Source of the DNA: Byssothecium circinans | Lineage: Eukaryota; Ascomycota; Dothideomycetes; Pleosporales; Massarinaceae | Direction of reading: 5' to 3' | DNA: 64,000 nt | Assembly: GCA_010015675.1 (NCBI GenBank) | Contig: ML977022.1 | Span: 271,703 to 335,702, forward strand | Shown here: piece by piece, positions 7,820-54,900 of the stretch | Numbering within the stretch: the stretch's first letter is position 1 | How the letters are laid out: the number at the start of each line of letters is the position of its first letter | Program-made: the position numbers and the translations under genes | The notes under the pieces: model-generated | What the model was told of the DNA's origin: nothing | Databases searched by the model: none | Seen by the model: only the letters and a program-made list of their open reading frames with translations

Positions 7820-7855
7820 TGTCAGGACCTAGCTCTACGCCACTAGGCCATGCCA
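7820..7855 (+). repeat. Left terminal inverted repeat
   Basis: The 36 bases beginning TGTCAGGACCTAGCTC are the exact reverse complement of 8230-8265. AAATC precedes it directly. Confidence 0.9.
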
Positions 7856-8229
7856 ACCAAAAAGGTGCGAATAATCTACAACTAGATTATTCTGGCGTAG
7901 AATAGTATATATACGTATCCCGCAGGTACAGCGTACCCCGCAGATACGATCAGTCAGCGCGCTAGACGCCACACCTGACATTATCCCCCTTCTACAGAGC
8001 GCTCGCCCCGAGCGCTACACTAGGACAGGGCGGATTATATATACTAGACCCTCCAGCAGCTACAACGTCGCGTTCGGGCACTCTCAGAGGCCAAGGCCGA
8101 GGCTACCCCGCTTACGCTCGTTTTGGCTATCACAAGCCAGCTACATGCTGAGCTGATCTTTTTGCGTAGGCAGGTCGAGACGGCAAATCGAACCCACGCC
8201 TCACGCAGACCAATAGTTGTAGATTATTA

Positions 8230-24035: not shown

Positions 24036-24494
24036 ACTGAATGTAGAGAAAAGACGGTGAAGCTGGTACGTATTGAACAAACTTCAACAAAATAGTAGAA
24101 AAGTCGACAAGATATATTCGGATACTATGAGCGAATTCATCGACCTGCAGGGCCTACCCAGCACATCTCTGCGTCAGTATCTCAATCATTCGTTCCGATT
24201 GCTGGATTCATTCGCTCCGCCGTGATAACTGAGTGATCGACAACCGTCTTTGTGGGGCAGCCATTCATCCAGCCATTCATCTATTATTGCTTCTCACTAC
24301 TTCTCAAGCAGTTCATTTAGACGTGCGCGATGGGGTGCTTGAATTCCCCACGAAAGCTTGATGTAATGGAAGCACTTCGGATGAAAGGCCTTTCGAAGCT
24401 TAATTTTAGCGCCTTGGCGTGATGACATCTCGCGTTTCTCTGCATCATCCGTTCAATCATCGATCAAGAGCGCGATACTACAACCTCCATCGAC
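24036..24494. promoter_or_regulatory. Divergent promoter, polygalacturonase / thioredoxin-like
   Basis: A 459-bp head-to-head space. One GTGGGG at 24251-24256 fits the SYGGRG consensus for the carbon catabolite repressor CreA, which commonly controls pectinase genes; a single site is weak evidence. No TATA box is clear. Confidence 0.35.
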
Positions 24495-25095
24495 ATGATC
24501 ACTCGGCCAGTATTCCCACGCACTTTTAAATTGCAGGTACCACATGCTGCAGCTCGACGAACCCTTTTCACCGGCTCCTCTACGCGCCTAAATGAGACCC
24601 GCGTCTTCGATAATATTCGCCAGCCCAGTGATCTGCATACACTCACGCTTCTCTCTGCAACAAACAACCGACCCTTGGTCACCTTATGGAGCACTAGTTG
24701 GTGCTCGACCTGTCAAGCGGTGAAGCCGTTAGTGAAGGGATTGATCGAGGATGAACGCGTTGGGGAGGCAGAGGGGGGGTTGGCATTCGCGGAAGTTGAA
24801 CTAGACAGTACTCTCATCGGCGACCTGGGGGTGCAGTACATGGTGCGCGCTTGTTTACTCTTTCACTTGGTTGGTAGTCAAAGAAAAGATACTAACAGGG
24901 CTTATTTAGATCACATCAATGCCAACATTGCTCGCCTTCAGCAGACAGGAAGCGCAGTTTGATACCAAACTTGTCAAGCCTGATCTCATGAAGAATAAGG
25001 ATTATCTGAGAGAGTGGCTGTTGAACGAGGCGAGAAGAGGAGGTCGAGTTGGTGGTGGCGGTGGAAGTCTTCTGGGAGGTTTGTTTGGTCGTTGA
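24495..25095 (+). CDS. Thioredoxin-like protein, probably mitochondrial
   Basis: Exons 24495-24842 and 24910-25095, phase 0; the 67-bp intron has the branch site ACTAAC close to its TTTAG end. The protein has 177 residues. The N-terminus is Arg/Ser-rich and lacks acidic residues in its first 33, compatible with mitochondrial import. The thioredoxin fold shows LVTLWSTSWCSTCQAVKPL with a WCSTC active site (Cys70 and Cys73) where thioredoxin has WCGPC, and the later MITSMPTLLAFSR supplies the cis-Pro element. The C-terminus is Gly-rich (GGRVGGGGGSLLGG). The donor is GTGCGC, a weak site; I chose it because only it restores the conserved MPT segment in frame. Redox function is likely, substrate unknown. 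It ends 109 bp from the convergent end of the giant gene. Confidence 0.82.
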
Positions 25096-25204: not shown

Positions 25205-28200
25205 TTATAACAAGAAAGCCACCTTCGCACCAAGATCCGGTACATCGTTCAAAAAGTCGAGTCCTCCATCGCCGTCATCACACCAATCAACCATCTCAAC
25301 ATCCTCGCTCTCATAATCCCATTCATTAGCATCTTCGAATGCTCTGTGTTGCTCCTGGCTGCCAGGACCCCTGTCATCGTCTTTGAATTGCCATGGACGC
25401 TCCTTGCTAATAGTAAAATCAACATTATTCCCATGATCGTAGGGGACCTCTGTTGGTGAAAGTGATGCCAGTCTCGCATCATCTTCCCCATGAAAGATAT
25501 CGTGTACCCATTGAGCTAGAGTACTTTGTCCCTCCTGCCTTACTGTTGCTATGAATCGTCTGTCCAATGGCACGCCATCGACTTTCGTCTCGACGGTAAG
25601 CTCCCAACAGAAGAGCCAAGCTACAAGTGTCCTCCAGTCCAGAACACCACCTACTGCAAGCTGAATTAAGCCAAGGAATTCACTGTACATCTTTTTCTTT
25701 AGAGAGTGACCTGTATCTTCTGCCAGTCTGCCGACGTTGGGTTGAGGTGTTAAGCCTAGTGCAAGGATCCAGGCATTCATGATGGTATGAAGTCCACAGG
25801 TCCAATCTCCAGCTTGCGCGAGAACCGTGACTTCACGTGGGTCTTTCGAAAATTTTACTTGTGTATCGCCCTCGTCGTTTCTGTGCTTGGCCCAGCTCGT
25901 GTTGCGTGCGAGTTGTTGGGTTTGGTTCAATAAAGTCGTCCTATGCAGATGCCTGAGATGGTGCGGAGCACTGTCAAGGAAGTAAACACGGAACTCTGTA
26001 CCTTCTTCACACTTTTCCTCTTGTAGTACCGTGAGGAAGGTGTGTATACGACCTTTGTTGTCAAAAACCCGGGGCAAAAGCCAGCATCTTCTGGGCCTCG
26101 AGGCGATGATGTCCATACCCGAATCCGAGGAATTACGGGATGCAAGTGCCATTTGGAGGGCGATGTCCTTTGCGAGCGTAAACCCGCCCGCAAATGGTGA
26201 GTCACTTCGAGCCTTCTTGTAGGTTTCGTGCTGGAGCTGATCGATGGCCTGTACCACCGAGGCTATGCCCTCCACCACACGGTCCTGATCCCAATGTTCT
26301 CCACTCTTTACCCATTGGTCTCCCTTACTCAACTGTAGTTGCTTTTGATTATTGAAGAGATGATTCAACCTTTTCACCATCCCGGAGGCGAATATACACG
26401 GATGTTCGTTGCTTCTTGCGTCATTCTCCGGCCGTTCCCACTGAATGTGTTGTTGAAAGCTTCTCAATAATGCCCGCCGCGAGTCCTCTGACTGTTTTTC
26501 CATAGTCTCGTCGATCTTTGAGATGAAATCATCGTATTCGGCCTTGACAGTATTGCTACTGTCGTCGAAGTCGTGTAAAGTAGAATCAATCTGTGATTTG
26601 ATTTCGCCCCTGTCAGCATTCAAGTCGAGTCTCCCCAAACTGGCGAGTAAAGGAGCATCTTTAGTCCTCGTATTGAAATCCCAGTCATCACTCGCACGCT
26701 TCTCGTTATGAAAGAAACCGCTTTCTCTGAGGGTAAGTCTGTTTTGGTCTGAGGCGAATGGCGTCAAACCAGTGGGCGGGGTGAACTGCTCCATATCCTT
26801 CAATACGGCGATTTCGTCTTCCAAGTCGACTTCATTCATGAGTCTTTGGGTGGATGTAAACCTCCTTGACATATCAACATCCTGTCCGCGTCCAACAAAT
26901 CCGTAACATCGCAGGAAAGCAGTTATCATATCGAGATCCGCAGCACCGACACGAGCCAGGTGAATGACATCCAAGGCGTCCCGGAAAAGTTGGCTTGATC
27001 GAACGGTCCAATTTTCTCGAAAGTCCATATTCGGTTCTAGGCCAAGAGCAAGAGCCCAGCCGTTGAAGATAACATGATATCCGCAAGTCCAGTTTGTACT
27101 TTGCATGGCACATGGGATCCACTTAGCAGCAGATGGTATCGGCGGGTTTGTCGAGTCAGGATTATTCAATTTCGTGATCAATCGAATGGCTATCTGGTAC
27201 AGCGTCTGACGGTGTTCTCGTGTGTAATGGTATGATCGCGAATCCACGATGGAGATGGTTGGTACTTTTTGGTCATCATATTGGATGACTATAAGTACAG
27301 CGTGATTGAAATAAACGATTGGCACGAGAAGAGGACGGCCGTTGCCGGAGACGCCGTTAAGAAGATGAGACGACTCGTCTGTCCAATCAGCACAAGCCTG
27401 GACTGCAGTCATCGTAACGTGACTGAAGCCCTCACGTCCATTTCCATTTTTGGTGATGGCTAGTGTTAGTGATGCAATGGCTAGCACGATTTCATCGAGT
27501 CGGAGGTACAGCGTTTGCTCCATAGAGACTTCGAGTGGTGGTGCCCTGATCGTCTTTAAGTCCTTCGCCACTTTCTGATCTTGCAATTTAGAGTCGATTG
27601 CCTGTCTGAGCTTTTGGCATGGCTCATTTCTTAAAGAGTGTGAAAGGTCAACTTTGGAGCTTTTTGCGGAGTCATTGTCGTCGCCTTTGTCGCCACTGCC
27701 TGAGGGTCCCTTGCCCTCGAACGTCCATTTCCCGTTGTTGAAATGCACATTGTTCGATCGAAAATAGGGAAATACCTTGGTAGACACGTTTTCAAGCAGC
27801 TCCGATTCTCGTTCGCGTATTATCGTGAGTCTGTCCTCTAGCGTTGCACTGCCTGATTGCCTGAACGTGGTTGAGAATCGTCGGTCGGCCGGCACTTCCC
27901 CCACCATCTTTTCTTGAACGAGGTCATGACAATTCAACCACGCGAACAGTGACCTCCAATCCAACACTCCCGCGATGGCTAGTCTGAGAACTTCTGCCAA
28001 TTCTAGGTAGGCCTGAGCACTCATCGGGGTTTTTGAAGGTGTGAGACCTAACGCGAGGATCCAAGCGTTCATAAGAGCATTCCAACCGGACTGCCAAACT
28101 CCTTTTGCTTCCTTCGGCACTTGTACTATGTACGGTTCCATACAGTAGTCGGGAGCTGTGTTGCTCGAACCTCGGAGGCGATGCTGGGACCATCCCAATG

Positions 28201-31200
28201 ACGAAACAATCTTCTTGGTCTGTTCAAAGAGAACATTGCGGTGTTTCTTGAGATGCTTTGGCCTGCTATCGAGGAAATAGACAGAAAATTCTGCCTTACC
28301 ATCTTTCAACTCCTCTTGCACAACTACGAGAAAGATATGTGGGTGTTCATTGCCACCGAAGGCTCTAGGCATGAGCCAGCACCTCCCAGGTCTCGAGGAA
28401 ATACCGCGTGTCTCCACTTTACCATTTTCAACAGCGCGAGCTGTTGCAAGCGTAAAGCCTCGAGCAAAAAGACGGTCTGGGTCTCCGTTATCAGCTACTT
28501 GGAGCTGATCAATGGCCTCGAGAACTGATGCAACGCCAGCCATCAACCTTTCCATAGACAAGTCAGTGCCCGCATGAACTTTTACGTAAGGCTCGACATG
28601 TTTTTGCATCAGGAGGGCTTTGTACTTTTCGTAGGAGCGGTTCCAGAAATTGCAGGAGGATTGGTTGATTTCATTCTCGAGCCGCTTGTCCTGAGATTTG
28701 TCATGCAATTGCATATAACCTTGATACTTTTGTATCATCGCTTCCGGGTCGCTCTCCCAGGATTCCCCGATTGTCGCCAAAAATCCCTTATAGAATTTGT
28801 GGGCTCCAGTCTCATCAGGGATGTTACATTTTCTTATGCTGGTAACAAAGCGTGTGTTGCCGAAATTGACGTTGTTGGTGTGATCATACGGTCGTTCAGA
28901 TCTGGGTAATGTACCCAGAGGGATCTCAAACTGATCGTAAATGTTCTCCAACCTAGTCGCCATTGCAATATCCCCAGCGTCCTGAGACCCTTTTTGTCTT
29001 AGTGACGATTCGAACCGGCGATTTTCTGGCACATTATCCATAGTTCTTTCTGCAGTGACCTGATTGCAGAAGAACCATGCGACCAGGGTCTTCCAGTCCA
29101 AGGCACCAGCTATTGCTAGCTGCAAGATGGACATGAACGAGCCAAAGCGGCTAGATAAATCGAAGTTTCGGTTAGGAGTCAAGCCCATTGCAAGGATCCA
29201 GGCGTTCAAGATGGTATGGTAGCCGCACCTCCATCCATTGTCTTGTTGCGCCACACTTACTATACGTAGATCTTCGGTGAAAGTTACATCTCCATCAATA
29301 CCTCCGTTACGATGGGTTGACCATCCAAGATCGGCAGCTGCCTTTCGTATTCGCTGGAAAAGAGCGGACGGGACGTCTTGTAAATAAGTCTCCAAGCTAT
29401 CGAGGATAGAGGCGGTAAACACTGTTTGTTCGTCCTCGGTAACCTCTTCCTGTACCACTGCTAGGAAGATGTGGGTTCTTCCGTCACCTTTGGTTTTCTG
29501 CCCAGCAATATCATCCTCCGTCTCGTCCCCTCCTCGCAGTCCTCGCAACACACCTCGCCCGACCGTTATAGGCATAAGCCAGCATCGCCGTGGTCTTGAT
29601 ACAACCGCGTTTTCTGGAAGTGACGTACTCCTGCTTATACCCATCGCAATGTTATAAGATGATGCGAGTGCAAAACCACCGGCGAAAACTTCCGAATCCA
29701 GGTGGGAATTCGCTTGATGTGTGTCAATTGCTTCAATGACTGATGCTATTCCAAGTGTTACATTCCAATCATCAACGTATTCCTCTTCTGGTGGAAATTG
29801 GAAAGGTGGAGAAAATGTTGTCTTCTTCGCTAAATCGTCGTAAACCTTCATCCTTTGTGCCAAGAAGTCACAAGGCCTGTTGTCAATGTACATCTGGTCA
29901 GACTCTTTCTTCGCAGCGTCTTTTACACCTAGAACTTCATGAACGCCCTTTGTCACCTCTAGTAAGTCAGGATTTATAGGATTGCCATTGGCCCCTTCAT
30001 TGCCTTCCACCTCGTCGAGAGGTTGATCCCGAGCTTTCCATGCGGCTTCAATTTCCTCTACAGTGGAATCTGGATCGAGTCGTCCTAAGCGAGCAAGCTC
30101 TAAAGCCTGATCTTTGACGGCTTGCTCTTCCCAATCATCACTTTTGAACGCGGAATTGTGTCGCTGGCCTTGACCCTCGAATCGAATTCTCGTAGCTTCC
30201 AAATCGATGGTGGTCTGTGGGTTTTGGCGCCAAAATTCGTTCTCGTCGCTGAAGCTTCTCTGGAGTACGTGCCCTCGGTCTCTGTCTGTGGAAAACTTCT
30301 GAGTTTTGTCGAGCTTTCTCTTGGGGTCTGCGGGTGATAGAACAAAGCGGTAACACTCGAGGAATTTGGCGAGAAATTTGCTGTTCGCTTCACCTTGTTG
30401 AGTGATGTATATTGCTTGTACGAGGTCCTGGAAGAATTGACCTTCTAAATCCCAGCTTTGGAAAAACTTAGTGTTGACTGTGAGACCAAATGCTTTTGCC
30501 CAGGCATTCATTATGACATGGTATCCGCTTGTCCAACCCTCGCTTTGTATCGCACATGGATACCACGTAGCGTAAGGCGGTACCGCATCGTCTGTTGAGG
30601 AGGAATGTACGTGTTGCCACCACTTAGCCTTCTTATATAGACTGACTGCTGCTTGGTAGACTTTTTGACGCTCTGCTGGAGTCTGGCTGTACGGCCTTGA
30701 GTCCATGACGGAGATTGTCGGATCGTTGCTCTCGTTGTACTGGATTACAATGAGCACCATATGATTCTTGCTATCATTCTTGATCTCGTACGGTACAATC
30801 AAAGGCCTTCCGGGGCGGAGAACAGACGCAAATGTCTCCCTTTTTGCTATCCAGCGTCTGAAGGCTTCCGGTAGGAGCACACCATATCCTCTGGGTTTCT
30901 CCTCATTTTCAGAGATAGACAGAGTCACCGTTGTAATGATCCTCAAGAGATCCGCTGCTGGCAGGCCTGAACCGTGCTTGGCTTTTTGGTTGATTTGTGC
31001 TCGTTGGTCCTCCGTCTGGTTTTTCCTAAACTTCCTTATGCGATCGTGAACGTATTTGCAGGCCTCTTTTCGCAGTTCTTCTGCCTTTACCGCTCCCATT
31101 TTTGCCTCTCTCTCTTTGGCCTCTCTTGCTTTTCTGGGCTTTTCCTCTTCAGTCGTTGCCTTAGCTCTTTCATTCATGAGCACAGCGAGTTCGTCAACAT

Positions 31201-34200
31201 GCAGCTTCGAGATACGAGTTCCCGTCCCCGCATAATGCTGTACCAATCTGGGTAGTGACTCTGAGTCAATCTGTTCGTCAGACCAAGTGTCGGTTGGAAA
31301 AAGCGTTCTGTGCTTCATGCCTCCCTCAACAGGAATTGACCGAATGATTTCGTTTGTCCGTGGGGTATTATTCCCAGGCAACCGGGCAAGTTTCTCGATA
31401 TCTCTGTCCAGCTGACTCTCACTTAAGACCAAGTCAAAGCGATTACCACGCCGGACTTGGATCTCATCGCTTATAAATGCTTGACTATCATCGGGGTTAC
31501 GATTGTCAACAAACCCCATGCAGGCTAGAAAAGACCATATTAATCTCCAGTCAGCATAGCCCTTACTGACTGCGCGAATTACTTTCCGGCATGACCTGAA
31601 GGTCTTGTGTTTTGACTTGAAGAAAGGATTGACTGGTAGCCCTAGTGCAATCGCCCATGCAGTCATAATAGTGTAGTATCCTGTCTGCCATGGCATTGCG
31701 GCTTCCACTTTTGTGATCCAATTTGCTTGCAGGTCGGGTTTGAAATTGCCATCTAAGTAATCAAGTTGGCCCTTATTGCACAGCATGCCCTTTACATCGT
31801 TGTATACTTCGCAGCGTAGTTTGGGTCTCGAGAGCCAGGGCGCTGAATCAAAGACAGCTATTGAAACACGGCTGGTGTCTGGTGACTGAACGACGACAAG
31901 AAAACTGTGGCCATTAACCGTATAAGGCAGCAGCATTGGTTGAGCACCAAACAATGCAACATCTCTCTTGCTGGCGGCCAGAGATTTTAGGGTGTCGAAT
32001 GTCATAACTCCGAAGCATTCTTGCGGTTCTTGTTTGTGGTCGACAGCTTGGATGACGGCGGCGACGCTCCTGAAAATGGTTTTCTCATCGAGTTCCTGAC
32101 TTGCAGATGTGTCTTTCCCCATTAGCTTTTTCATTTTTGGTTGTTCAAGCGTGTCTCGGAGGTAGGCGCAGGCCGGGTTGATAACCTGAGATTTCGTCTT
32201 TTGACTCCCATCTTCATTTTCCGAGTCACTAGTATCCGAGACTCGTATCACGGATGAACTATCCGACTCTTCCCCACTCGGCTCTCCTTCGTTCGACCAT
32301 CTATCATTTTCTCGCCTCAGCTCTCCAGTAAACAGTACCATTGTCCCGTTATCAAGCTTCTCCGGCGCTAAGGCATTGCCCCTTCTCCCCTTCCAAGCCT
32401 GCATTAATATGTTTTCTCTTTCTTCAAACTTTCTCGCTTCCGCAGCGGTAGCTTGGAACCTTCTGTCATCTTCAGGTACATCCACGCCGATCGCCACGAT
32501 GTTCCAGCACTTCAAGAAAGCGAATATCAGTTTCCAGTCTAAAGCGAGGTTGATGGCGAAGAGATTGGCGATTACATCAAATTGTTCCCTAAAATACTCC
32601 TCATTCTCGGTGGCCAACTTGAACCCAGGGTTCAGCGCTAGACCCAATGCCAATGCCCAAGCGGAAAGAACCATAAGCCGGAAGCTAATCTCGATATCGT
32701 CGTGGCGAGGCACTCCGGCGACCCAGAGGGAGTGGTCCCCGTCCGGGAATTTTCCGAAATCTGCATCGATCTTGTTTAGCCAGTCGTGAGCTTCCACGAA
32801 GTTCTTTGCTTTCTTGCGCACCGAGCGTCGTTGTCTTTTCTTGGAGTCGGCTGTGGGGTGTATGATGTGCAGGCTAATCTCCCTTTTCTTTGATAGCTGT
32901 ATGATGGCAAGGTGTGTGTCCTCAGCAGGGAGCAAAACTGGACGGCCGGGTAGGAACAATCTATCACCCAATGGCGTAGCAAAGCCAGCCATGTTGGGGT
33001 TATTTTCTTTGTTCAGATTGTGATTGTTGATAGCTCTTGGGACGAGTTGGACGAGGAATGTTATAAAGCCTGAAGCTTGGATGCGGTCCTCATAAGCTTC
33101 CTTATTTGACATGACTATTGGCCTGAGCTTTGCAAGACGTAGGCGCAAGTATCTAGAAAATATATCAGCAAAAGAAATCGTAGAAGTTGATAGTGTCAAA
33201 ACTTACAGGCAAAAGTCGGAAGTCTTTTCCAATACAGTAGTACGGTCAATAAACCCGTCACCCTGTGCCAGCTGTTCTAACTGTTGCCGTGCTGCTTCCT
33301 GCTTCTCTTTCTTCTTCTTATCTGCTTCAGCTTTCGCCCTCACAGCCTCCTCTTTCTTCTCCTTCTTCTGATTAGCTGCCTGTATCTCCTTCTTTCTTGC
33401 TTCATCTACCGTATTCTTCTCAGCCGCCTCTTCTGCTTTCTTCCTCCTCTCTCTCTCTTCTTTTGCAAGTTTCTGATCAATCTTTTCTTTTTGGCCTGCT
33501 TCATACTCTGTAAGTCTCTTATCAATGGCCTCTTTCCTCCCCACTTCATACTCCTTTATCCTTGTTTGAGCGTCTCTTTCAAATTTCTTTTGCAACTGTC
33601 CCCTAATTTCTGCCTCAGACTTTCCTGCAAAGACTTTCTTCACGGTCTCTGGGTCGAAGGCTTCAATTGGCTGCTGCTGCTCAGTACCAACGGGTCCCCT
33701 ATCCGTCGACCATATAGTTGAAATGTTTTCCGTGTTCTGAGAATTATGCCGTGCTTTTCTCTCAACATCGTCAAGAACAAAGGTGCGCTCGTCCAAGCTC
33801 CTTGTGAGCTCAGTAGTGCCACCTTGCCAAAAGAAAATAGGCTGTGAGAGGAGCTCGATCGTGGCGAAGGAGGGCAAGGGGCCGATGAACAGCTCGTCCG
33901 TATCACCAACATTGCGGAACGTAGAGGCGTTGACAGTGACAGATGTATGAACTGGAACGACGACGAAATAGCGTAAGCCTGCGTCGTCGGCTCCTTGGAT
34001 AGGACGAAGGTCTATACTGGCAGCTTCAGATTCTTCATTGGATTTGCCACGATTCCGCGCGTTGGTGCTAAATCGCAACTGTTAGCTTTGGCGACTTGCC
34101 TTGATCTACCAGAGTGACTAAATACTTACACTTTAAACGTATGATTGCCCATCACGGAGAAAGGGCGAGGGACACCATTAGATGCCACGACAGCACACTC

Positions 34201-34722
34201 CACTTCAGCCACTCCCTCCACGAACTCATCCCCATCTTGCGCAAATGCTCTTACAAAATGATGATACGCAAAGTCCCCCAAGTCTCTGTTTGACTCTCTC
34301 TCAATGCGTCCAAATAATTCTCGAAAAGCATCTGAGGCGCCGATGCTATCTAAATCATTGGAAGGCTTTGGATTCTTTCGCGTTACTCGCGCACCCGTAT
34401 TGAGTACTTTAGGCCGCCCAGGTGGAACCACTGGCGACCGAATAATTGCTGTTTCGAGGGATGCAGTCTGCAAATTGTGAAGCTCTCCCCATGGACGGTT
34501 AAAGAGGGCTTGAGTGAAGCTATCGACTGTGGAGGGTACTCCAGCACTGCCACGAGAGGGTTGGGCGGGAAAGACCCATTGGATATCCAGTCTATCTTCA
34601 ACTGGGATTCCGCCGTCACTTGGGGATTCGGAAACTGTGCTTTTTGTCTTTGGCTTCTTCGGGTCCTTGCCTCCTCCTTGTTTCGTCGCTTTGCGTTTGG
34701 TTCCAGCCTTCTTTGGCGGCAT
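25205..34722 (-). CDS. Giant 3,133-residue protein with seven tandem Ulp1-like protease modules
   Basis: Exons 34130-34722, 33207-34067 and 25205-33152 (one 7.9-kb exon) join in frame across introns of 62 and 54 bp. Residues 4-27 are Lys-rich like a nuclear localisation signal. Residues 354-473 form a Lys/Glu coiled coil. From about residue 540 follow seven copies of one module. The clearest copies contain a G.ASV..AID helix, a strand ending in His (HAVLIVIQY or HTFLTVLQEE), a strand ending in Asp-Ser (ISIVDSR), then Q-x5-C in W[TR]CGYH.I.N.W..A.GL, then a closing LDWR.L.AWL.C and VP.DRRF. The order His, Asp, Gln, Cys and the Gln-to-Cys distance of six are those of Ulp1/SENP-type clan CE (C48) cysteine proteases. 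Modules 4, 6 and 7 keep all four residues. SUMO or ubiquitin-like proteolysis is the natural guess, but no substrate is known. The intact frame argues that the gene is used. Confidence 0.85.
25547..26285 (-). repeat. Giant protein module 7, type B, complete tetrad
   Basis: RIHTFLTVLQEE, VYFLDSAPHH and LAQAGDWTCGLHTIMNAW supply all four residues (Cys codon 25796-25798, about residue 2937). After it comes an acidic C-terminal tail. Confidence 0.82.
26849..27505 (-). repeat. Giant protein module 6, type A, complete tetrad
   Basis: NHAVLIVIQYD, ISIVDSRSY and AMQSTNWTCGYHVIFNGW supply all four residues (Cys codon 27083-27085, about residue 2508). Confidence 0.82.
27857..28553 (-). repeat. Giant protein module 5, type B, inactive
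   Basis: PHIFLVVVQEE and VYFLDSRPKH keep His and Asp, but the nucleophile is Ser in VWQSGWN (codon 28087-28089, about residue 2173) and the preceding Gln is Ala. Confidence 0.78.
28992..29766 (-). repeat. Giant protein module 4, type B, complete tetrad
   Basis: THIFLAVVQEE, ASILDSLE and AQQDNGWRCGYHTILNAW supply His, Asp, Gln and Cys (Cys codon 29225-29227, about residue 1794). Confidence 0.8.
30271..30952 (-). repeat. Giant protein module 3, type A, Cys to Ser
   Basis: His (NHMVLIVIQY), Asp (ISVMDSRPY) and Gln (CAIQSEGWTSG) are in place; the nucleophile is Ser (codon 30527-30529, about residue 1360). Confidence 0.78.
31460..32080 (-). repeat. Giant protein module 2, type A, inactive
   Basis: His in GHSFLVVVQ and Asp in IAVFDSAPW are kept, but the nucleophile position is Thr (WQTGYY; codon at 31682-31684, about residue 975) and the Gln six residues before it is Ala. 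Confidence 0.75.
32438..32960 (-). repeat. Giant protein module 1, degenerate
   Basis: Recognisable by the AWALALGL helix near 32645-32680 and the closing LDWKLIFAFLKCW...VPEDDRRF block. Where other modules have Q-x5-C it reads DIEISFRLMV, so neither Gln nor Cys is present. His is kept in DTHLAIIQ, near residue 563. Confidence 0.65.
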
Positions 34723-49511: not shown

Positions 49512-51419
49512 TCAGCCAAAGTTGAAATCTTGACCAAACGGCATGCCCGCATCATCTGCTCCGTCCAGGTTCATAAACGTGTCGAATGTGAAGTCCGTTT
49601 CACCTGTCAGGTCGATAGGCTCCGGGGCCCTCATGGGTGGTGGTGGCTGGGCGGTCTTGTTCGGTTGCTCAGGGGGCGGTTCCAATCCATCGACAAGCTG
49701 CAGATTCTTGGGGACTGCGTTGCCGAATGCGTCGAGGCGACGGTCACAAGGAGTGCCGGCGAATTTGCCTTGACCTGTAGCGTCGCCTCGCGCATTCATC
49801 CAGATGCCGTTACCGCCTTCGCCTTTCTGGACGGCTGCCTTGAAGTAATCTTCGAAGAGGATGCTGGATTCGTACCAGCGGCCTTTGACTTCTGAGATGT
49901 CGATGGTGGCACCAACGCTTACGAGATCCCAGTAGGCTATAGTGCCCGTGTTGGGTATGAGGATGCGGTTCCGCCAATTGATGTCCTCCCGCATTCGTAC
50001 GGGTATCTGGTTGTTCGTGGGGGGCTGCGGAGGAGCGTTTGGGTTTGTTACAGGCAAAGTTTTGTAAGAGTAGACGTCCCCAGTGAAATTGACCTTAGCA
50101 GGAGACCCTGGCGCTACTTTTTCGGTGATCGTGGTAACGACCATGATGTCTGTGCCGAGGGCGAGTCGTAGCCGTACTGGTTCTCCATTCCAGATCTTCT
50201 CTCCACCCAGGTATATGCCGTTGTATTGTCGATACTCCATACCCCCAACTGCGTTGGACTTGATGCGCTCAAACAATGTGTATGTGATGTCGACTGCCTT
50301 TGCTGCCAGGATGGAAGCGTCGACATCGGGTATACCGTCGCCATAGCGGCCAGCCAGCAGATCAGCCCAAGGAGCGCTATTGTAGGTCGTATGGGGATTC
50401 TGCTGGAGCCATGCATACGTGCACGATGGAGCTGACCAGGCGAGCCATGGCTTGATCTGATCCGTGACAAGCTCTTGAGCGGGAGAATCGAAGGGGTGCG
50501 AGAGGGGTTGCACGAGATATATGTGTGTCTTGTTGTCCTTGGTCCAACGGCGGGCCACGAGTCCCAAGCCCCAGGCAGCTTTGGTTGGCCTAAAGAACCA
50601 CACCACCTCTCCAGTGCGCGCCATCCACTTGCCATATCGGGCGTCCATTCCTTGTTCTTCGTGGCGAATCGGGGGCAGGTCTGTGGGTACCTTTCGCTCT
50701 GGCGCCCTGATCTGTGTGCTTACGTTAGGGTTTGGGGTCGCGGGTTTGACGTTGGGGCTCTGGGCGGTGGGCGTGCCGGCGCTCTGTCGGCGGATAGGCA
50801 TAGGCATAGGCATCTGCTGCACGGTTGGGCTGCGGCCCACGGGGGTATTTTCTTTCCTCATGAATGTCTCCGACTTGGGCTCTACTTTGAACGGTGGCGG
50901 TGGGGCAGTTTTCTCAGCCTCGAGCTGCAGAGGGGAGCATATTCGGCAGGTGCAGTTCTGGTAGTCGCTGGTTTCGTCGGTGGAGAGCCATAGCAGGTGT
51001 GGGAAGAACTCGATGGGGCTGCGGAAGCGCTTCTTCGGGCCTTTGGGGTATCCGTATAGGTAGGCATCTTGTCTGTCGCCGGGATTGCTCTTTCCTTTCG
51101 ACTTGATGTGCTCGTAGAGGTGGTAGCCGTCGGGGAACTCGTGGAGGATGCATTGATTCCACTTGTCTTCGTGGGCCTTTCCGCCCACCTCGCGGAGCAG
51201 CATGCCACCTAGCTTCTTCCGCCATTCGATATGCTTGGGGTCGTCTTTCTCAATCTTGCGGTAGTAGTCGGATATGCCTTGCTTGTTCGGCCCGTTGTTG
51301 AGCTGCTCTTCGGTCGGCCCATTGCGTATGACGTTGCCTTTCTGGTTGACCACCGGCTGACCATCGGATTTGCAGGCGAATATGGGGTAGAAGGCAGTGA
51401 GGGGCTGCGACAGGGACAT
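49512..51419 (-). CDS. clr2: Clr2-like transcriptional silencing protein
   Basis: A single exon of 635 residues. In fission yeast Clr2 is a subunit of SHREC, the Snf2/HDAC repressor complex of heterochromatin. The N-terminal Clr2 domain is visible in HEFPDGYHLYEHIKSKG, then DAYLYGYPKGPKKRFRSPIEFFPHL and LWLSTDETSDYQNCTCRICS. The second, Clr2_transil-type domain runs from RTGEVVWFFRPT through GLVARRW and HIYLVQPLSHP to the C-terminal region with WNGEPVRLRLALG. The two parts are joined by a Pro/Ser-rich linker. The open frame continues 16 codons upstream, but its first codon there is TTG; the ATG at 51419 is the natural start. The gene is head-to-head with a SNF2-PHD remodeler. Confidence 0.88.
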   Translation of the reverse strand: MSLSQPLTAFYPIFACKSDGQPVVNQKGNVIRNGPTEEQLNNGPNKQGISDYYRKIEKDDPKHIEWRKKLGGMLLREVGGKAHEDKWNQCILHEFPDGYHLYEHIKSKGKSNPGDRQDAYLYGYPKGPKKRFRSPIEFFPHLLWLSTDETSDYQNCTCRICSPLQLEAEKTAPPPPFKVEPKSETFMRKENTPVGRSPTVQQMPMPMPIRRQSAGTPTAQSPNVKPATPNPNVSTQIRAPERKVPTDLPPIRHEEQGMDARYGKWMARTGEVVWFFRPTKAAWGLGLVARRWTKDNKTHIYLVQPLSHPFDSPAQELVTDQIKPWLAWSAPSCTYAWLQQNPHTTYNSAPWADLLAGRYGDGIPDVDASILAAKAVDITYTLFERIKSNAVGGMEYRQYNGIYLGGEKIWNGEPVRLRLALGTDIMVVTTITEKVAPGSPAKVNFTGDVYSYKTLPVTNPNAPPQPPTNNQIPVRMREDINWRNRILIPNTGTIAYWDLVSVGATIDISEVKGRWYESSILFEDYFKAAVQKGEGGNGIWMNARGDATGQGKFAGTPCDRRLDAFGNAVPKNLQLVDGLEPPPEQPNKTAQPPPPMRAPEPIDLTGETDFTFDTFMNLDGADDAGMPFGQDFNFG

Positions 51420-51903
51420 GGCGGGTGGGGCGCGTGGTTGGAGAAGTTCAGGTGGTGGTGGAAGCAATCAATTATCATTTACCAGAGAGACTGAGAGTCG
51501 CGTCGGAGTTACGAGGCTTATCGATAAGCTTGTCGCCGACGCCGCGCGACCTCCGATCGCGACTTCTCACTTCTGAGCAGAAATTGGAAGCGACGCGTTC
51601 GTCACCAAGTCTCCGGGGTCATTTTGCAACCCTCCTCACCACAACGTGTATTTTGTTGTTCTATACACCTCCATCTCCGCCACTCCCTATACCATGGCTC
51701 GAAAGACCTAATTGCCGCGGTCACTCTCATCTTCACCCTCACCTTCACTCTCGATATGCCGCTACTCCTTGGTTTCATCCTCATCCTCACCCTCACCTCG
51801 ATGTGAGGTATATAGATCGCCCGTTGCAATCCTGCCTCACCCGTTCCCTGCCCTGCTGTCTCTTACCATTCTCTTCCTATAGTGCCGCACAAGAGACTCC
51901 ACT
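51420..51903. promoter_or_regulatory. Bidirectional promoter, Clr2-like / SNF2-PHD
   Basis: 484 bp separate two divergent chromatin genes. The half next to the SNF2 gene is pyrimidine-rich, typical of fungal promoters and 5' UTRs. Co-regulation of the pair is inferred. Confidence 0.5.
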
Positions 51904-54900
51904 ATGGACGAGCGACCTCGCTTCAAACTCGGCTCGCCCATCCCCAGTACACCGCCGAAGAAGCGCGGAGGAGCATATGAGAGTCTCCTTGCACTTTTTG
52001 GATCCATGAGCTCGGCGACATCGGCGACGAAAGCCCGGCGCGAATCGTCCCTTACTGAGGCAAAGCCAACACAGCCGGTGGACAAACCGACGGAAAGCAA
52101 ACAGACAGTGCGTCTAGACAACCGACCGAACCGCGCTCCCTTAATTCGATCGCGGAGCCCTAGTGCAGAATCCTCTACCACAAAATCATCTCTCGCTCAC
52201 GAGGGTACCGACTCTGCCGCCGACAACACCAGCAGTGAGGAATCAGAGGAATCCAGCGAAGACGAACCCGCCGCGCCTGTCCGCCGGGCTCGTACACTAC
52301 AGTCAAGACACCACCTGGGAGAGCTGAAGATGGAGGCCAGGAAGAAGGACCCCACTCCGCGCCGAAGTGCTCGCAACCGGCCATCCGACATATTAGCTTC
52401 TGATACGGTCGCGCCCACTCCTCCTCGAGCCGTGCCACGGCGCATACAACAGCCCCGGAGGCTCGGTACTGCGCGTGCCCGGCTACGTGACGATATCGCG
52501 CAGAAGACCAAGGCCAAAGCCAACAACTTTTTCGTCGCCAACCAGGACCGCTTCCTCCCGCTGCTCCCGGAACATAACTATGTGTCCCGTCTTGTCTCAA
52601 AACAGCAGGTCGGCCCCATCGTGGAGTATGAGTCGCTCAAGCAGCAGCCTGAGGGTGTGACTGCAACCATGAAGCCTTACCAGCTCGAAGGGTTGTCATT
52701 CCTGGTCCATCTGCACAACAACGGTTTCTCAGGCATTTTGGGAGACGAGATGGGTCTTGGAAAGACTCTCCAAACTTTATCCCTCTTTCAATACCTGGAA
52801 GAGAAAGACCGAGAATCTGGCACAACGTCTGAGGAGCTACGGCCGTATCTTGTTGTGTGCCCACTGAGTGTGCTCAACTCCTGGTTCGTTTCCAATCACT
52901 CAAAAAACTGAATACATACTGATGCAAAGACAGGGTCAGCGAAGCACAGAAATGGGTACCCGAGCTAAAAGTGCTTCGCTATCACGGCAACCCAAAAGAG
53001 CGGGACCGACTCAAGAGGGTTGCTCTAGGCCTTGAAGACCAGCGCGGTAACGAGACCACCCAGGCAAGGCAGCGGAAGGCATCCAAGAAAGCCGGGGTAA
53101 AGGTCACCAAGCTGCCCACTGAAGAGACATCCAACTCGTTCAAGATTGTCGTAACCACATACGAAACGTTTCAGGCGGAGAAGGCTTGGTTTGGCCACTC
53201 TTTTATTTGGCGCTATGTTGTTCTAGACGAAGGCCACAAGATCAAGAGCAGCGCCACGCAAATCTCAACCTCGCTGAAGAACGTATCTTCCGAATACCGT
53301 CTCATTCTCACCGGAACACCCCTCCAGAACAACCTCGTGGAAATGTGGGCTTTGCTAGCCTGGCTGTACCCGGACGTTTTCACCGAGAACACACAGTCCC
53401 TGTTCAAGGAGTCATTCGACCTCTCTCGGGGAAAGATCAATCGCAAGACCTTGGATGATGCCCGAAGCCTACTTGAGCTCATCATGTTACGGCGTATGAA
53501 GGATAGCCCGAGCGTTAACTTGGGTCTGCCGGAGAAAGAGGAGGTTCTTCTTTTTACCCCTCTCACGCCCCTGCAACGGCTGTGGTATACTCGTCTGCTT
53601 ACACGCATGGATGATACCGTGCTGGACGAACTCTTTGTGGATAGCAAGTCTAAAGAGAAGGCGGCTCTAGAAGAAGACAAGCATGATGAGCAACTCCAAG
53701 CGCGTCTCGAGCATCTGGAGGCCGGGGACGACGAGAAAGATGATCAGTGGGAGAAGACTGCCGAGATGATGCGACAAGCGATCAAGAAGGAGCAAGAACA
53801 GCAGGCTGCTGGACCCTCCAAGTCCGCTTGGCAGAAACTCATGAACCTCGTGATGCAGCTGCGGAAATGCTGCTCGCACCCATATCTAATCCCAGGCGCC
53901 CGGCCAGAACCCTACGCCGTTGGCCAGCATGTCATTCGGGCGTCTGGCAAGTTCATCTTGCTCGAAAAGTTGTTGAGGAACAGCATCTTCATGCAGGGTA
54001 AGAAGGTTCTCATCTTTTCTGGCTTCACCACGACTCTAGACTACTGCGAGGATCTTCTCTCGATTTTGAGCAATTTTGGGCAGGAGTTCAAGTACTTGCG
54101 CTTGGACGGTAGCTCTCAACGCGCTCGGCGTAACCTGGACATTCGCCTTTTCAACGATGCAAAGTCCGACTACAAGGTGATGCTTCTGTCCACTCGTGCT
54201 GGTGGACTGGGTATAAATTTGACCACCGCTGAGGATATCGTATTCCTCGATGAGGACTGGAATCCGCAGATCACGCTACAGGCCGAAGCCCGCGCCCACC
54301 GCATTGGGCAGTCCAAGAAGGTCACCGTCTACAAGCTTTGTACTCAGGGTACAGTAGAGGAGCAAATGATGGGCCGCATTCGCAAGAAACTCTGTAAGTA
54401 TTCCTGCGCGATACATGTCGTTTCTAGACGAAGCGTATTGACTCACATTTGCATGAGCTTTGCTGACTTGTAACAGATCTTTCGACAAAGATTACAGAAT
54501 CCATGAAGAGCGTTCATGGAGACCAAGCGTCGGCCGGGCGGGCATCACTTGAAGAAGATGCGCCGGAGATGAGCACTAATCAGCTTAAATCTTTGATTCG
54601 TCGTGGAGCTCAGACGCTTTCGCACCCCGACATTGATGTCACGGATATGCTCTCTTGGGATCTAGACAAGATGATGGAAAAGTGCCGTGACAAAGCAGCA
54701 GACCCACTGGTGAATCCAGATGTGACGGCCGCTGAGGTTGATGAGGAGAAATGGCTCTCGACCATGGAGCGTGTCGAGTGCGCAGTCCTAGATGGCAAGC
54801 GGTACCAGCGAAACCGTGGCAAGGTTGAGAAGGCTACCGATCACATCTTGCCAGAGTCGATCTCCCGACAAGATCGCCGCAAAGGGAAGAACACCACTGT

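Follow-up and report, generated by a model that had tools for sequence, protein, structure and literature searches.

A family of giant fungal proteins combining potentially active and dead Ulp1-like cysteine protease modules

We analyzed a 64-kb window of the Byssothecium circinans genome (64,000 nucleotides of contig ML977022.1; C46:271703-335702), whose minus strand hosts a gene for a giant protein with seven tandem modules related to the Ulp1/SENP cysteine proteases. The gene is composed of three exons with 9,402 coding bases and encodes 3,133 residues (Table 1). The original prediction, made from the sequence of the window, proposed a single gene of this length; its coordinates proved exact, as did the two introns, which have GTAAGT as donor and TAG as acceptor. 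The prediction of one gene is right, and its spliced product agrees letter for letter with a protein in the database (P0003, 'hypothetical protein CC80DRAFT_554006 [Byssothecium circinans]').

The seven tandem copies that had been predicted could be recovered from the sequence alone, with a spacing of 334-434 residues between the helices typical of the module. When the modules were compared with each other by BLASTP, M5 matched M7 at 8e-61, M7 matched M4 at 2e-53 and M3 matched M6 at 2e-45. M1 is the weakest repeat, at 2.7e-5 against M6; with a family profile in which M1 itself is represented, it scores 8e-44. The repeat is far beyond chance. All seven copies contain the expected helix (xAW..A.GL or GWALALGL), and the closing block foreseen in at least five of them was recognized by eye both as a DW(R/K)-type helix (M1, M2, M4, M5, M7) and as an RRF motif (M1, M4, M5, M6, M7). 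As predicted, His and Asp are each found in six of the seven copies, M1 being without both. The full His-Asp-Gln-Cys set occurs in M4, M6 and M7 only, and is incomplete in M1, M2, M3 and M5; Gln is kept in M3, M4, M6 and M7 only. Since no other module has the full tetrad, only three of the seven can be proteases, and the giant protein would consist of three potential proteases and four pseudoproteases. The prediction of Ulp1/SENP-like proteases therefore holds for the CE fold, for the His-Asp-Gln-Cys order and for the Gln six residues before Cys, but as regards protease competence it holds for three modules out of seven. The accompanying hypothesis of a multivalent protease or reader is consistent with this anatomy.

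Table 1. Coordinates of the giant gene, its modules and the adjacent thioredoxin-like gene in the window
Feature	Position	Strand	Remarks
Exon 1	34130..34722	-	residues 1-197 and two bases of codon 198; holds the basic start resembling a nuclear localization signal
Intron 1	34068..34129	-	GTAAGT...TTTAG
Exon 2	33207..34067	-	most of the conserved N-terminal domain and the charged linker
Intron 2	33153..33206	-	GTAAGT...TCTAG
Exon 3	25205..33152	-	7.9 kb; all seven CE-fold modules and the stop codon
M1	32252..33109	-	class 1 pseudoprotease; H/D/Q/C columns D,H,R,S
M2	31427..32185	-	class 2 pseudoprotease; H/D/Q/C columns H,D,A,T
M3	30257..31084	-	class 3 copy without Cys; H/D/Q/C columns H,D,Q,S
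M4	28922..29884	-	class 4, intact H,D,Q,C
M5	27812..28669	-	class 4 copy without Gln and Cys; H/D/Q/C columns H,D,E,S
M6	26822..27634	-	class 3, intact H,D,Q,C
M7	25472..26410	-	class 4, intact H,D,Q,C
M4 catalytic Cys codon, C1794	29225..29227	-	His 1712, Asp 1736, Gln 1788; codon from exon model
M6 catalytic Cys codon, C2508	27083..27085	-	His 2435, Asp 2455, Gln 2502; codon from exon model
M7 catalytic Cys codon, C2937	25796..25798	-	His 2855, Asp 2878, Gln 2931; codon from exon model
Thioredoxin-like gene	24540..25032	+	coding blocks 24540-24845 and 24910-25032; convergent with the giant gene

The best sequence match of the modules is 6dg4, the Ulp1-like SUMO protease of Chaetomium thermophilum (E 8e-7), and the alignment brings all four catalytic residues (H, D, Q and C) into register. 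A first search of the PDB with the seven window modules had returned only 6dg4 at 0.047, together with an unrelated surfactin synthetase at 0.44. We also used the predicted folds of M6 and M7 for structural searches, and the 50 rows listed for each were CE-clan proteins, as judged by their titles or their known affiliation, with SENPs and Ulp1-type proteases as top matches in both lists. On these models, the assignment of the modules to an Ulp1/SENP-like CE fold is right. The Pfam profile PF02902 matches one stretch of the exon 3 frame with 34.6 bits (cut-off 20.7), and the same cut-off is passed by four of the nine homologs scanned (P0012, P0013, P0019 and P0025). More remote relatives were sought in several collections. 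A viral fold library returned no row at E <= 0.001; the best had E 1.6e-3 and probability 1.00, and the second was a putative ubiquitin-like cysteine protease of a Feldmannia species virus (3.8e-3, probability 1.00). Pattern searches for prokaryotic and viral relatives gave 46 matches in genome_contigs and 22 and 20 in viral_contigs, none of which was confirmed. Single-module relatives of approximately 149-474 residues were not found at E <= 0.001 among 5,167 candidates, a weak negative because P0002 (338 residues), which is matched by M7, was also not returned. A link to KDZ-type transposons found no support: at E <= 0.01, M6 and M7 match only themselves and the identical contig C70 (best 15 and 14 candidates), and there is no transposase among the nine neighboring open reading frames (ORFs) scanned.

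Although the original prediction knew of no parallel for the seven-module architecture, it is not unique. A search with the full-length protein identified at least 30 giants, from the window's own P0003 to P0032, with a weakest E value of 1.4e-90; this number is a floor, because just 7,990 candidates were scored. Two further proteins, P0001 (548 residues) and P0002, are fragments and do not enter the count of 30. The giants bear three to seven modules, mostly four, and the homologs are approximately 24-36% identical to the window protein. Their named sources are Byssothecium, Amniculicola, Massarina, Polyplosphaeria, Massariosphaeria, Alternaria, Lophiostoma, Clohesyomyces, Ascochyta, Melanomma, Parastagonospora, Bipolaris, Paraphaeosphaeria, Paraconiothyrium, Plenodomus and Kalmusia. 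All five source species whose order was checked, including B. circinans, belong to the Pleosporales, as presumably do the remaining named genera, and, among the candidates scored, the giants are so far known from this order only. In the open-access literature searched, no account was seen of a single fungal protein that carries Ulp1-like modules in tandem. In the accessible part of PMC10779208, 'tandem Ulp1' refers to two neighboring Colletotrichum genes, and PMC11412873, likewise available in part, names an orthogroup 'Ubiquitin-like protease family profile domain', which might or might not correspond to the giants. The giants are apparently an undescribed family and a variant of the CE-clan protease architecture.

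To classify the modules we started from 132 domain hits, 127 of which had at least 130 aligned profile positions; 120 entered the tree, and the seven others came from P0002, P0030 and P0032. The tree was a quick maximum likelihood one, with the four catalytic columns to be left out, and 45 of its 117 inner branches are open. It separates four classes with support from the Shimodaira-Hasegawa-like approximate likelihood ratio test (SH-aLRT): class 1 (n = 28, support 98), class 2 (n = 28, 93; including P0011_m1, as in the module tree), class 3 (n = 28, 91) and class 4 (n = 36, 99). Near relatives are present (among others from Alternaria and P. nodorum), so that the rows are not independent. The usual order of modules is 1-2-3-4, with variants such as 1-4-1-2-4-3-4 in Amniculicola, 1-3-4 in Massarina and 2-2-3-4 in Lophiostoma (P0011). 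With its order 1-2-3-4-4-3-4, B. circinans has extra class 3 and class 4 copies, two of which (M3 and M5) have lost Cys. A class 4 lineage without Cys (support 98) lies upstream of module 3 in P0007, P0012 and P0004, which suggests an older five-module form.

The four classes differ in the conservation of the catalytic residues. Cys is absent from class 1 (0/28) and found once in class 2 (1/28, in P0015), while it is present in 25 of the 28 class 3 and 28 of the 36 class 4 modules. His is invariant in class 3 (28/28) and Gln is kept in 26/28; class 4 has His in 34/36, Asp in 36/36 and Gln in 32/36. Six of the eight losses of Cys in class 4 affect extra copies, the other two being in P0029 and in the fragment P0001. 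In class 1, the entropy of the His, Gln and Cys columns ranks 134, 167 and 98 of 253, and the core L, R and F columns are kept in 28/28. Ser occupies the Cys column in 12/28 modules of class 1 and in 12/28 of class 2. A separate full-length alignment gave His 26/26, Asp 26/26, Gln 24/26 and Cys 24/26 at the M7 positions, and His 24/24, Asp or Asn 24/24, Gln 23/25 and Cys 23/25 at the M6 positions. When the truncated modules of P0027, P0030 and P0032 are read by eye and classed by position, every giant (30/30) has Cys in at least one module and 27/30 have it in both class 3 and class 4, the exceptions being P0029, where class 4 is without it, and P0011 and P0014, where class 3 is. The last two modules thus usually look intact, and the first ones dead.

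The intact-looking modules depart from their relatives at one position. In the accessible text of PMC7391069, an aromatic residue right after the catalytic His bars P2 side chains in deubiquitinases (DUBs) and ubiquitin-like (UbL) proteases that cleave after Gly-Gly, and in that of PMC4961225 this position is a highly conserved Trp in the CE clan. None of the 56 modules with both His and Cys has Trp after His, and only eight have any aromatic residue (Phe or Tyr) there; in M4, M6 and M7 the residue is Ile, Ala and Thr, respectively. Among all 127 aligned modules, post-His Trp occurs in two (P0004_4_303 and P0007_628_922), both without Cys. His-Trp is found in 6dg4 and in both ordinary PF02902 loci of the same genome with a readable His (L001 and L002; the stretch shown for the third locus, L003, has no His). 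The giants therefore look like CE proteases, yet fail a hallmark of the members that cleave SUMO or ubiquitin. Without the gatekeeper, the S2 pocket is predicted to admit a side chain, which would make a non-Gly-Gly tail or an internal site the likelier target. RavZ, which is without the aromatic motif, acts on a substrate with a long side chain at that site (PMC7391069, same portion).

The region upstream of the modules is also conserved. The N-terminal region of the window protein has a counterpart in all 27 other giants with such a region (BLASTP, E <= 1e-3); P0004 and P0021, which start too near their first module, are outside this comparison. It is best kept around residues 175-335 (consensus GYFI.LP..T.VTVNG.TY.N...F.IGPL..FA.IELL.QPIFF) and, as seen by eye, is followed in exon 2 by a long, charged, coiled-coil-like linker (residues ~338-468). 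The Pfam scan of the N-terminal exon frames gave no match at E <= 1. The protein starts with a basic stretch resembling a nuclear localization signal (MPPKKAGTKRK...KKPKTK), and pattern matching detects basic clusters within the first 60 residues of 24 out of 30 giants, often of the MPPKRK...KKKR type.

These data lead us, with belief and doubt evenly divided, to regard the giants as probably nuclear, multi-module CE-clan cysteine proteases, in which dead modules bind and catalytic ones cut through an open S2 pocket. The basic N-terminus would direct the protein to the nucleus, where the dead modules of classes 1 and 2 may bind and position a substrate or modifier; the Ulp1 SUMO trap with Cys changed to Ser is a precedent for binding. 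The two catalytic classes 3 and 4 could then each cleave at a site of its own or work jointly on a single bound substrate; SUMO and ubiquitin are less likely as targets than an internal site or a non-Gly-Gly tail. Several observations weigh against this reading. The nuclear signal was called from the pattern and by eye, without a chance control. The folds predicted are those of M6 and M7, both of them intact-looking modules. PF02902 scores above its cut-off in none of the seven modules taken singly, and the giant gene is absent from the list of the genome-wide PF02902 search. Class 2 retains His in 23/28 and Asp in 27/28 modules, and hence residual chemistry is possible, while the fragment P0001 has Ser for Cys in its single full module. 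Moreover, ZUFSP is a DUB family without the gatekeeper (PMC7391069, in the part available), so that its absence is no proof, and the best matches, a SUMO protease by sequence and SENPs by structure, favor a UbL substrate.

The catalytic halves of the Alternaria giants show an additional feature. Between P0009 (A. novae-zelandiae) and P0022 (A. triticimaculans), identity is 92% from residue 150 to residue 946 and 32% beyond, the switch falling between module 2 (end 914) and module 3 (start 987). A comparable switch separates P0009 from P0018, a protein from a metagenome, at 592, on the border of modules 1 and 2. Both halves of P0022 mostly agree with P0030 (A. hordeiaustralica), with many blocks of 100 residues at 85-98% and some stretches of P0030 missing or different, and the catalytic half of P0009 agrees with that of P0010 (71-88% per block). 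In a tree of the N halves of 12 proteins, P0009 pairs with P0022 (SH-aLRT 94; P0009+P0010, p-AU 0.045 in the approximately unbiased test), whereas in the C-half tree P0009 groups with P0010 (100) and P0022 with P0019 of A. alternata (100), and a pairing of P0009 with P0022 is rejected there (p-AU 1.9e-5); both p-AU values are indicative only, since the groups were chosen after the module tree was known. P0009, P0010, P0018, P0022 and P0030 thus form a mosaic bounded by modules, with near-identical N-terminal parts and deeply diverged catalytic halves. It may have arisen by haplotype exchange, by conversion between paralogs or by assembly error.

The thioredoxin-like gene adjacent to the giant gene, whose locus extends over 24426-25032, has 72.5-78% identity with the C-terminal end of P0008, the giant from Massariosphaeria. 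The Pfam thioredoxin profile scores above its cut-off in P0008 and below it in the window ORF (E 0.0017). This counterpart shows a conserved linkage or, in P0008, a fusion or misannotation. Since P0008 and the window protein are only approximately 27% identical, the giant diverges much faster than its neighbor. Elsewhere in the window, a divergent pair of genes encodes a Clr2 silencing protein (49512-51467, minus strand) and an SNF2/helicase (52923-54473, plus strand). A dispersed repeat of approximately 160 bp at 7820-7980, with at least nine further genomic copies (84-97% identity) and a short inverted piece nearby, looks like a long terminal repeat or another transposon remnant. Between 56001 and 58000 the G+C content falls to 0.43, with a GC skew of 0.17, while the flanks have 0.53 and 0.55. 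An Rfam search of the window gave no match. Both 8-kb window ends that were tested, as well as the modules of the giant gene, recur without change on contig C70, and the assembly seems to carry this region twice.

Other explanations deserve consideration. The giants may be ordinary SUMO, NEDD8 or ubiquitin isopeptidases made multivalent, whose active modules cut Gly-Gly and whose dead ones read SUMO chains. The nearest relatives in sequence and fold are indeed SUMO proteases, and an engineered Ulp1 with Cys changed to Ser traps SUMO, its conjugates and its chains (PMC3216068, as far as its accessible text goes); the scarcity of aromatic residues after His, where 6dg4, L001 and L002 have Trp, and the confinement of post-His Trp to two modules without Cys speak against it, and we regard this explanation as tentative at best. 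It is unlikely that the giants are genes of genetic conflict or recognition (allorecognition or defense against parasites), in which the catalytic C-half represents old, interchangeable haplotypes and proteolysis triggers a response. Such a role would account for the switches at module borders in Alternaria, for the conflict between the N-half and C-half trees and for the faster divergence of the giant relative to the linked thioredoxin. Fungi do have recognition systems that involve proteases and trans-species polymorphism, and the protease HET-Q2 is a precedent (PMC12881547 and PMC10197012, both available in part). The mosaic, however, is seen between species and not within one, and could be explained by paralogs with gene conversion or by misassembly; Pfam detects no cell-death or NOD-like receptor (NLR) domain in the three exon frames, and a word search finds neither SUMO nor Ulp1 in the accessible parts of the same two papers. 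Doubtful as we hold it, a genetic-conflict protease whose dead CE modules capture the target while a swappable catalytic pair with an open P2 pocket cuts it, with haplotypes older than the species carrying them, would add a CE-clan type to the recognition or immunity genes known from fungi. If the Alternaria switches prove to be polymorphism within a species, a protease-based recognition system becomes directly testable.

The remaining alternatives are less probable. The giants would be pure scaffolds if even the intact-looking modules bind without cutting, in line with the absence of Cys from four of the seven window modules and from all 28 class 1 modules; the tetrads kept in classes 3 and 4 despite the low identity to the window protein make this improbable. 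That the modules are CE-clan acetyltransferases rather than proteases is very improbable, given that SENPs and Ulp1-type proteases head both fold lists and that Gln, at which acetyltransferases may or may not differ, is kept in most class 3 and class 4 modules. An annotation artifact or a mobile-element gene, as the giant size and the identical second copy on C70 might indicate, is hardly credible: 30 proteins share ordered classes, the thioredoxin gene is linked, and the identity of C70 over both tested window ends indicates redundant assembly and not transposition.

As putative nuclear CE-clan proteases with binding and cutting modules, the giants share with Ulp1/SENP (MEROPS C48, PF02902; 6dg4, human SENP2 and SENP5, yeast Ulp1) the CE fold, the His-Asp-Gln-Cys order and the Gln six residues before Cys. 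They differ in having three to seven tandem modules, about half of them dead, in the absence of a conserved aromatic gatekeeper and in their strong divergence. CE-clan proteases usually have a single catalytic domain. Carboxypeptidase D, a multi-domain protease of a different fold and clan with a dead repeat, resembles the giants in that a single protease fold is repeated in tandem, in active as well as inactive form. With two orthologous module classes conserved dead and two active, the giants offer a natural experiment on pseudoproteases beside their active kin, and, with the Gly-Gly gatekeeper lost, their substrates are predicted to be of a class other than SUMO and ubiquitin. RavZ, a Legionella protein acting on ATG8, is likened to them as a protease without the aromatic motif, as described in the available portion of PMC7391069. 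HET-Q2, in the part of PMC12881547 at hand, is also fungal and proteolytic, and divergent haplotypes are typical of recognition genes; it differs as a subtilisin-like serine protease acting on gasdermin, for which the Pfam scan of the nine neighboring ORFs gave no match and which was not sought further. Finally, the engineered SUMO trap Ulp1(C580S)/UTAG, according to the accessible text of PMC3216068 and PMC9784311, has a CE fold in which another residue stands in for Cys, as it does in classes 1 and 2, but it is engineered and single-domain, while the dead modules of the giants are natural and their binding is putative.

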